From an uncultured Prochlorococcus sp. (GTDB taxonomy: Bacteria; Cyanobacteriota; Cyanobacteriia; PCC-6307; Cyanobiaceae): 64,000 nt of DNA. Each line of letters begins with the position of its first letter. Within the stretch, counting starts at the first letter, position 1. Location of the stretch: contig CACILY010000001.1 of assembly GCA_902587615.1 (NCBI GenBank), forward strand, positions 40,887-104,886, in the 5' to 3' direction. Position numbers and translations under genes: made by a program. Below the pieces are notes generated by a model. It searched no databases and was not told where the DNA came from. It worked only from the letters and a program-made list of their open reading frames with translations. This document shows positions 24,226 through 26,228 of this stretch, in pieces.

Positions 24226-25380
24226 ATGATCTCTAAAAATTATAATGCAGCCATTTTGCTACTCGCAGATGGGACCTTTTTTAAAGGTAGGAGTTTTGGT
24301 TTTAATGGTACAGCTAAAGGTGAAGTTGTTTTTAATACTGGTATTACTGGTTACCAAGAAGTACTAACTGATCCGAGTTATTTCGGACAATTAGTTACTT
24401 TTACTTATCCAGAGATAGGAAATACTGGAATTAATGAAGAAGATAACGAGTCAAGCTCTGTTTCTGTAAAAGGAGTTATTGTAAGAGAATTTACATCTAA
24501 TCCTAGTAATTGGCGTTCTAAACTTTCTATTGAAGATTGGTTCTCTCAAAACAAAGTTGTTGGAATATCTGGAATAGATACTCGGGCTTTAGTTAAACAT
24601 CTAAGAGAGTATGGATCTATGAATGGGATTATTACTACTGATTTAAATACTCCTATTATTGAATTAAAGAACAAAATTGATCAGGCTTCTAATATGGAGG
24701 GGCTAAATCTTGTAAACAACGTTTCGACCAAAATTTCCTACAAATGGGATCACAAATGTCCAGTTAATTTTGATCAGAGAATAATTACAAGAATAGATAA
24801 ACCATATAAAATTGTAGCTATAGATTTCGGTATTAAAAAGTCAATCCTTCATCGATTGGTTGCTCATGGATGTGAGGTGACAGTTTTACCAGCTTCAACT
24901 GATATTACGAATGTTCTTAGTCTTAATCCTGAAGGCATATTTTTTTCAAATGGTCCTGGTGATCCTTCTGCTGTATCCCATGGAATTTCACTTGCAAAGG
25001 ATTTGATAAGTCAAACTAACATTCCAATATTTGGAATATGTTTGGGACATCAAATTATAGGTTTGGCTTTAGGAGGAAAAACTTTCAAACTTAATTATGG
25101 ACATAGAGGATTAAACCATCCTTGCGGCATATCTGGAAGACTTGAAATTACCAGTCAAAACCATGGTTTCGCTTTAGATCCTTCCTCATTAGATAGTAAC
25201 GTTGTTGAAATTACTCATATGAATCTCAATGATAGAACTGTTGCAGGTATAGCGATGTGTAAAAAACCCGTTTTTGGGGTTCAATATCATCCAGAAGCTA
25301 GTCCTGGACCTCACGATGCTGATCATCATTTCAATAGATTTGTTTCTCTAATAAAAAAAGATCGATCAAGCGTGGTTTAG
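24226..25380 (+). CDS. carA: Carbamoyl-phosphate synthase small subunit
   Basis: A 384-residue glutaminase subunit that supplies ammonia for carbamoyl phosphate (arginine and pyrimidines). The N-terminal CPSase small-chain domain starts with [14 protein letters not shown]. The class-I glutamine amidotransferase domain has [10 protein letters not shown], the nucleophile elbow GICLGHQI, and the HxE pair in YHPEASPGP. The large subunit gene (carB) is not in the window. Same strand as trpD. Confidence 0.96.
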
Positions 25381-25425
25381 TTTGATTTAAATAACTACAC
25401 TTCTGCACATAAGCACATAATTATC

Positions 25426-25431
25426 AGGAGG
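25426..25431 (+). promoter_or_regulatory. Strong Shine-Dalgarno sequence (AGGAGG)
   Basis: A perfect AGGAGG nine bases before ATA 25441 and eighteen bases before the nearest canonical codon (TTG 25450). The spacing favours ATA as the start of the STAS gene. Such strong sites are rare in this A+T-rich genome. Confidence 0.7.
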
Positions 25432-25440
25432 ATTAAACCC

Positions 25441-25806
25441 ATAAACGATTTGCAACGACTCACTGTTTCTTTACGTGGTGGATTCGATAGGCGTAAAGGT
25501 TGCCTTGTGTTTTATTTCACAGGTCAATTGGATGCTTATTCAGAGAAGCAGTTCACAACCTATGTAATTGATGTTCTAGATACAAATCAATTGTCAGTTG
25601 TTATTGATTTGTCGAAAATCGACTTCATTGACTCTTCAGGCTTAGGAGCAATGGTTCATATGGCTAAACATTGCAATAAAGCAAAGAGACCTTTCTTGGT
25701 TGTTGGTAATGCAAGAGTTAAGCAGACTATTAAATTGGTTAGACTTGAGGAATTTCTTCATTTGGTTCCAGACTTATCGACAGCACTAGATCAATTGGCG
25801 GCTTGA
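25441..25806 (+). CDS. STAS domain anti-anti-sigma-like protein, probable ATA start
   Basis: A single STAS domain of about 121 residues. YFTGQLDAYSEKQ is followed by the phosphorylation-loop region VVIDLSKIDFIDSSGLGAMV, with the serine expected to be the kinase target, and VVGNARVKQTIKLV. SpoIIAA-type proteins bind partner kinases or sigma regulators. The partner is unknown here. No ATG or GTG exists near the N-terminus; ATA at 25441 (N-terminus NDLQRLTVSLRGG) has ideal spacing from AGGAGG, while TTG 25450 is too far. Ends overlapping the next gene. Confidence 0.82.
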   Translation: MNDLQRLTVSLRGGFDRRKGCLVFYFTGQLDAYSEKQFTTYVIDVLDTNQLSVVIDLSKIDFIDSSGLGAMVHMAKHCNKAKRPFLVVGNARVKQTIKLVRLEEFLHLVPDLSTALDQLAA

Positions 25807-26228
25807 CTGATTGGATTCGGCTTCAGAAACCTTCAGGGTCTCCAGAAGATTTAGGACCGCTTCAATTAGCATGGTTAGGAGATGCAATTTGGGAGATGCA
25901 TCAACGTCTTCGTTATTGCAAAAAACCTGGTCGGGCTAAAGATCTTCATATTGCGGTAGTTTCTGAGGTTAAGGCTGACGCCCAGGCTGAGGCTATTGTT
26001 TTTTTAGATAAATACTTAACTGACGCAGAAAAGGATATTGTAAGAAAAGGACGAAATCGAGCTGGTAGAGGTCCTCGTAAGTGTGATGCAGCCATTTATG
26101 CAATGGCTACAGGCTTTGAAGCCCTTATTGGTTGGCTCTATTTAAACAATCCTTGTCGTCTTGCTCAATTATTTGATCAACTTCAAGAGAATTCAACTCA
26201 TTTAAGAAAAGAACAAAACAATGGTTAA
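25803..26228 (+). CDS. mrnC: Mini-ribonuclease 3
   Basis: A 141-residue RNase III-like protein without a dsRNA-binding domain, the Mini-III type that matures 23S rRNA ends. Seen: PLQLAWLGDAIWEMHQRLRY with catalytic Asp in LGDA, VSEVKADAQAEA, and the second acidic motif KCDAAIYAMATGFEALIGWLY. The TTG start overlaps the STAS stop (TTGA), and the gene overlaps rlmB by 8 bp. Adjacency to an rRNA methyltransferase fits rRNA maturation. Confidence 0.88.
   Translation: MTDWIRLQKPSGSPEDLGPLQLAWLGDAIWEMHQRLRYCKKPGRAKDLHIAVVSEVKADAQAEAIVFLDKYLTDAEKDIVRKGRNRAGRGPRKCDAAIYAMATGFEALIGWLYLNNPCRLAQLFDQLQENSTHLRKEQNNG

Follow-up and report, generated by a model that had tools for sequence, protein, structure and literature searches.

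To our knowledge, conserved non-canonical start codons are known for only a handful of bacterial genes. Among them is infC, which starts with AUU, AUC or AUA and is autoregulated by its product, IF3, in E. coli, Streptomyces and S. aureus. In such AUH codons two of the three bases pair with the initiator tRNA, and the codons are rejected by IF3. In Streptomyces, sigR has GTC as its start codon; IF3 represses this gene, and changing the GTC to a canonical codon leads to overproduction (PMC5472188). In Staphylococcus, ccpN (AUA) and cvfC1 (AUU) lie behind conserved strong Shine-Dalgarno sequences and give about 10% of the output obtained with AUG; the AUA/AUG output ratio of ccpN varies with the medium, and the AUU of cvfC1 shows no medium effect (PMC13009471). 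E. coli pcnB is described, in work cited in the latter report (PMC13009471), as translationally limited by its AUU.

Phosphorylation-dependent partner switching that controls SigC has been demonstrated in Synechocystis only (PMC12329169). The Synechocystis protein Ssr1600 carries phosphoserines 59/60 and suppressor sites at L24 and G43; cells that overexpress it grow more slowly in high CO2, and its loss or reduction rescues rpoZ mutants (PMC12329169). Ssr1600 is, in other words, dosage-sensitive in this organism.

The window analyzed here, a stretch of 64,000 nucleotides, belongs to a small, 60%-complete, Prochlorococcus-like genome whose closest named relatives are Prochlorococcus single-cell genomes. 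The features that matter for the argument are the following.

24226..25380, + strand: carA, adjoining the STAS gene upstream; ATG start in relatives.
25396..25401, + strand: candidate -10 box TACACT, predicted from the sequence as part of the gene's own promoter, with a 5' UTR of about 30 nt.
25426..25431, + strand: Shine-Dalgarno AGGAGG, read in the sequence; orthologues have an aligned G-rich block.
25438..25440, + strand: CCC ahead of the start; pyrimidines at -2/-1 are conserved among orthologues.
25441..25443, + strand: ATA, the strongly supported start codon; the aligned codon is ATA, ATC or ATT in 216/218 distinct orthologues, and a pattern scan finds this form in 310/326 genomes from outside the window's family.
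25441..25806, + strand: STAS anti-sigma-factor antagonist, predicted Ssr1600 orthologue, 121 aa counted from the ATA (Pfam STAS, TIGR00377, residue map).
25450..25452, + strand: TTG, the first in-frame canonical codon and very probably not the start; not conserved, with the codons upstream of it under protein-level selection.
25803..26228, + strand: mrnC-like Mini-III RNase gene (Pfam Ribonuclease_3), start TTG.

The gene order is trpD, carA, STAS gene, mrnC-like Mini-III RNase, rlmB, gatA, with the STAS and RNase genes identified by domain searches and trpD, carA, rlmB and gatA by their translations. The carA - STAS - mrnC neighbourhood is present in 115/115 picocyanobacteria, in every one of which the mrnC-like gene lies directly 3' of the STAS gene, and in many other cyanobacteria as well. 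The mrnC-like gene overlaps the STAS stop by 4 bases (TTGA), and its TTG start is kept in 109 distinct loci; the overlap suggests that translation of the RNase may be coupled to that of the AUH-started gene.

The window protein matches PF01740 (STAS) with 62 bits against a cut-off of 22.6 (E 5e-17) and the anti-sigma factor antagonist family TIGR00377 with 60.5 bits against a cut-off of 53.45, and it carries an Asp-Ser-Ser-Gly (DSSG) phosphoacceptor motif at residues 64-67. The closest solved structures are those of TM1442 and SpoIIAA. Assignment as SpoIIAA itself was rejected, the score for that equivalog (TIGR02886) being 35.5 bits against a cut-off of 114.75, which indicates a related fold and not SpoIIAA. 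The 20 Ssr1600 residues named in PMC12329169 find their counterparts in the orthologues with the numbering shifted by a constant 6 (mean 17.9 of 20 over 103 non-picocyanobacterial orthologues; next best offset 3.8). The gene is therefore ssr1600, whose residues are at present counted from a point six codons into the protein that begins at the ATT read in relatives. We found no discussion of the start codon in PMC12329169. As for a partner, the window's own genome encodes one small stand-alone HATPase_c_2 protein, a homologue of the RsbW/SpoIIAB group; the same-genus genome searched also has one, and such proteins occur in other picocyanobacteria. This protein is likely to be the expected kinase/anti-sigma partner of the STAS protein.

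The STAS reading frame is open from the stop codon of carA (TAG 25378-25380), which is the in-frame stop preceding the ATA, to TGA 25804-25806. The initial annotation had proposed that the gene starts at an ATA behind a perfect Shine-Dalgarno sequence, and the arrangement it described is indeed present: AGGAGG at 25426-25431 is followed by nine bases (25432-25440) and then by ATA 25441, while TTG 25450-25452, the first canonical in-frame codon, lies eighteen bases past the Shine-Dalgarno. Between the carA stop and ATA 25441, the window sequence has no in-frame ATG, GTG or TTG. Taken by itself, this arrangement is within chance, since AGGAGG occurs 37 times on the two strands of the window and 17/37 of these sites have ATA, ATC or ATT in some frame 4-10 nt downstream. 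The start is nevertheless well above chance, because 216/218 orthologues conserve both the ATH codon and the Shine-Dalgarno at fixed spacing.

In the alignment of 218 distinct cyanobacterial orthologues, the codon at the start position is ATT in 98, ATA in 73, ATC in 45, ATG in 1 and CTG in 1, and GTG or TTG in none. The 91 distinct orthologues from Prochlorococcus and Synechococcus have ATA (56), ATC (29) or ATT (6) and no ATG, GTG or TTG at the aligned codon. Across many cyanobacterial families, almost every orthologue has AGGAGG, then 5 nt, then ATT; AGGAGG stands exactly 5 nt ahead of the start in 84/103 non-picocyanobacterial orthologues, and an in-frame TAG is often embedded in the Shine-Dalgarno itself (TAG GAG GNN NNN ATT). 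In picocyanobacteria, the equivalent element is GGGGG, GGGG or AGGAGG, mostly 8-9 nt before the start, forming a G-rich block at -14..-10. The question whether the ATA might be peculiar to one strain is thus settled by the alignment: an ATH start is a property of the gene throughout the phylum, and a sequencing error or a strain-specific mutation is ruled out by the 216/218 orthologues, which come from independent genomes.

A scan of 390 genomes with a sequence pattern, independent of the alignment, led to the same result. By design the pattern misfits the family to which the window belongs, for which the alignment served as the test, and the scan therefore refers to the 326 genomes outside that family; 310 of these have the ATH form, and the true NTG cases number two. 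The 16 unmatched genomes comprise one with ATG (G662), one with CTG (G445), three with ATT that miss the pattern elsewhere, and eleven in which the contig is truncated or an orthologue was not found. The start rule is not absolute, then, given one ATG genome and one CTG genome. An ATG in orthologues, which the initial annotation had named as evidence against its reading, is confined to that one distant, 99%-complete genome, where it has the identical position and spacing and therefore marks the start position independently. In the same genome the STAS start codon has thus changed naturally from ATT to ATG, which amounts to a natural experiment. In G445, CTG replaces ATH behind an AGGAGG at 5 nt. 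A further 99%-complete cyanobacterial genome (G404) yielded no orthologue of the STAS gene.

Evidence on the position of the start also comes from 72 orthologues whose frame, followed from the preceding stop as far as codon 9, holds no ATG, GTG or TTG ahead of the conserved core, so that a canonical start is impossible in them. High-light Prochlorococcus illustrates this, reading GGAGG...TAA ATC ATA GAA GAT, with a stop one codon before the start; in the four genomes concerned, the next canonical codon is 21-144 codons downstream, and its use would cost the conserved N-terminal part of the protein, which makes a canonical start impossible there too. Information content by codon position rises sharply at the ATH: downstream of it, positions 1 and 2 are conserved and the third is free (1.37, 1.64 and 0.37 bits at positions 1, 2 and 3 over codons 7-20 of picocyanobacteria), and upstream of it no coding pattern was seen, apart from the Shine-Dalgarno block and the CCC next to it. 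These data bear on the possibility that translation starts upstream and that the ATH encodes a conserved isoleucine within a longer protein. ATA, ATC and ATT are exactly the isoleucine codons, and 74/218 orthologues have some canonical in-frame codon upstream; however, 144/218 have none, in-frame stops occur 1-4 codons upstream in many lineages, the upstream codons lack a coding signature, and a probable promoter lies just 35-45 nt upstream. For the 72 orthologues devoid of any canonical codon, initiation upstream is refuted, and for the family at large we consider it extremely unlikely.

A start downstream of the ATH, at TTG 25450 or elsewhere at the codon 7 leucine from which Ssr1600 is numbered, is also very improbable. 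Such a start has in its favour that TTG 25450 is canonical and that the published numbering begins at codon 7 (PMC12329169), as the offset of 6 indicates, but TTG 25450 is replaced by TTA, CTG, CTA, CTC or TTT in relatives and sits 18 nt from the Shine-Dalgarno. Furthermore, codons 2-6 are under protein-level selection: codon 3 specifies Asp or Glu in 218/218 orthologues with variable third bases, which places the start ahead of TTG 25450, and in high-light Prochlorococcus the distance to the next canonical codon speaks against such a start. The claim that ATA is a genuine start was thus borne out by three lines of comparison, namely ATH in 216/218 orthologues, the 72 orthologues without a canonical codon and the replacement of TTG 25450 in relatives, and ATA 25441 as the start position is strongly supported.

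On a tree of the protein core, constructed with the start codon left out, about 21 start-codon changes can be placed, of which 19 are within ATA/ATC/ATT. G is excluded at the third base, and a constraint to encode isoleucine is impossible where upstream initiation is impossible, which argues for selection against AUG. Other genes serve as controls. The two neighbours at these loci use ATG (carA) and a conserved TTG (mrnC), ordinary start codons are available to the STAS paralogues of those genomes that were checked, and infC has no ATH start in any of 35 cyanobacterial loci sampled, all of them canonical (ATG in 5/5 picocyanobacteria). With these control genes ordinary, ATH starts are general neither to these genomes nor to the STAS family. 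The 0/35 count led us to drop infC as a positive control for cyanobacterial AUH starts. It is a separate observation that, with canonical codons in 35/35 sampled loci, start-codon autoregulation of IF3 may be missing from cyanobacteria.

The leader has conserved features of its own. A TANANT box occurs in 108/115 picocyanobacterial orthologues, at positions -35 to -38 relative to the start codon, the copy in the window being at -45. The pyrimidines at -2/-1 are CC (within CCC) in picocyanobacteria and TT or TC in most other cyanobacteria, and base +4 is mostly A in picocyanobacteria. A hairpin that would hide the Shine-Dalgarno by pairing -12..-9 with -4..-1 was considered and rejected, with 358 pairs observed vs 364 in shuffles. 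The conserved pyrimidines and the picocyanobacterial +4 A are what one would expect if AUH initiation, instead of being plain leakage past IF3, had a dedicated helper, for example a trans-acting factor or extended pairing between these bases and the loop of the initiator tRNA. Against this, the bases vary by clade, CCC is unable to pair with A37, and covariation of a hairpin with the Shine-Dalgarno is absent, all of which makes a dedicated helper improbable; the -2/-1 pyrimidines may act through a purely structural or context effect.

On the basis of these comparisons, we consider it likely that the ATA is a real start, that AUG is selected against phylum-wide, and that inefficient, IF3-gated initiation keeps the antagonist scarce; the sequences themselves establish the position, its conservation, the lack of canonical alternatives and the protein family, while initiation with fMet, repression by IF3 and low dosage as the reason are the parts that we infer. 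The initiator tRNA-fMet would pair with bases 1 and 2 of AUH only, and a strong, precisely spaced Shine-Dalgarno would partly compensate for the weak codon, while IF3, by discriminating against the mismatched third base, would hold translation low. Translation of the antagonist would vary with IF3 activity and with the initiation state of the cell, and the antagonist would be kept scarce relative to its HATPase kinase/anti-sigma partner. Such scarcity would set the sigma-factor partner switch correctly and may also tie the switch to growth. Dependence on IF3, which the initial annotation had raised together with a low-level mode of expression, is plausible by precedent (PMC5472188, PMC13009471).

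It may be that the AUH start acts as a regulatory valve, in which IF3 and the initiation state set the level of the antagonist and thereby couple ribosome function to sigma choice in carbon/light acclimation, with infC itself canonical; this is a tentative proposal to which we give a little less than even credence. Alternatively, the non-AUG start could provide a fixed low output that sets the stoichiometry of antagonist and anti-sigma factor, with no dynamic control by IF3 or growth. A fixed setting would explain why AUH is conserved and why AUG is kept out, and it has parallels in E. coli pcnB, at least as this gene is characterized in the work cited in PMC13009471, and in cvfC1, whose AUU was insensitive to the medium (PMC13009471). 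For low expression, however, a weak Shine-Dalgarno would be simpler and would suffice, whereas that of the STAS gene is near perfect and precisely spaced, which points to an aim beyond mere low expression, and the output from the ccpN AUA did shift with the medium (PMC13009471). We hold a purely static setting to be possible, though less likely than not.

No earlier report of an AUH start in the STAS gene was found in the non-subscription literature searched. The start is kept throughout a phylum that includes Prochlorococcus, among the most abundant photosynthetic organisms, and the combination of a conserved weak start and a strong ribosome-binding site suggests that evolution has kept the output of the antagonist deliberately low or adjustable. 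In practical terms, the residue numbering of ssr1600, a gene studied for carbon/light acclimation, probably begins at the wrong position, and constructs made from the present start may miss six residues together with the native initiation context. Gene finders limited to ATG, GTG and TTG would misplace the STAS start throughout cyanobacteria. The locus also opens a direct test of whether IF3 and initiation fidelity feed into sigma-factor switching.

With the class represented by infC, pcnB, sigR and ccpN, the STAS gene shares a conserved start outside ATG/GTG/TTG, a strong and well-spaced Shine-Dalgarno and, in 72 orthologues, the lack of any canonical alternative. It resembles infC in having an AUH start with the third base free among A, C and U, and the S. 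aureus infC is also behind an extended Shine-Dalgarno; infC differs in encoding IF3 itself and in that its feedback loop has been experimentally demonstrated. The ccpN and cvfC1 genes likewise combine a conserved AUH start with an extended Shine-Dalgarno, but they encode unrelated Staphylococcus proteins, ccpN being common to B. subtilis, and their starts have been ribosome-profiled, whereas the STAS start is known from sequence. Ssr1600 of Synechocystis PCC 6803 is the orthologue, a STAS protein with the same Asp-Ser-Ser-Gly phosphoacceptor, although it is numbered from 6 codons downstream of the ATT present in relatives (PMC12329169). The similarity to sigR is that a conserved non-canonical start sets the stoichiometry within a sigma-factor circuit, that the AGGAGG site is strong and that the annotated start was wrong (PMC5472188). 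The sigR case, however, involves GTC, the sigma factor itself and Streptomyces only, whereas the STAS gene has AUH, encodes an anti-sigma antagonist and keeps its start phylum-wide.
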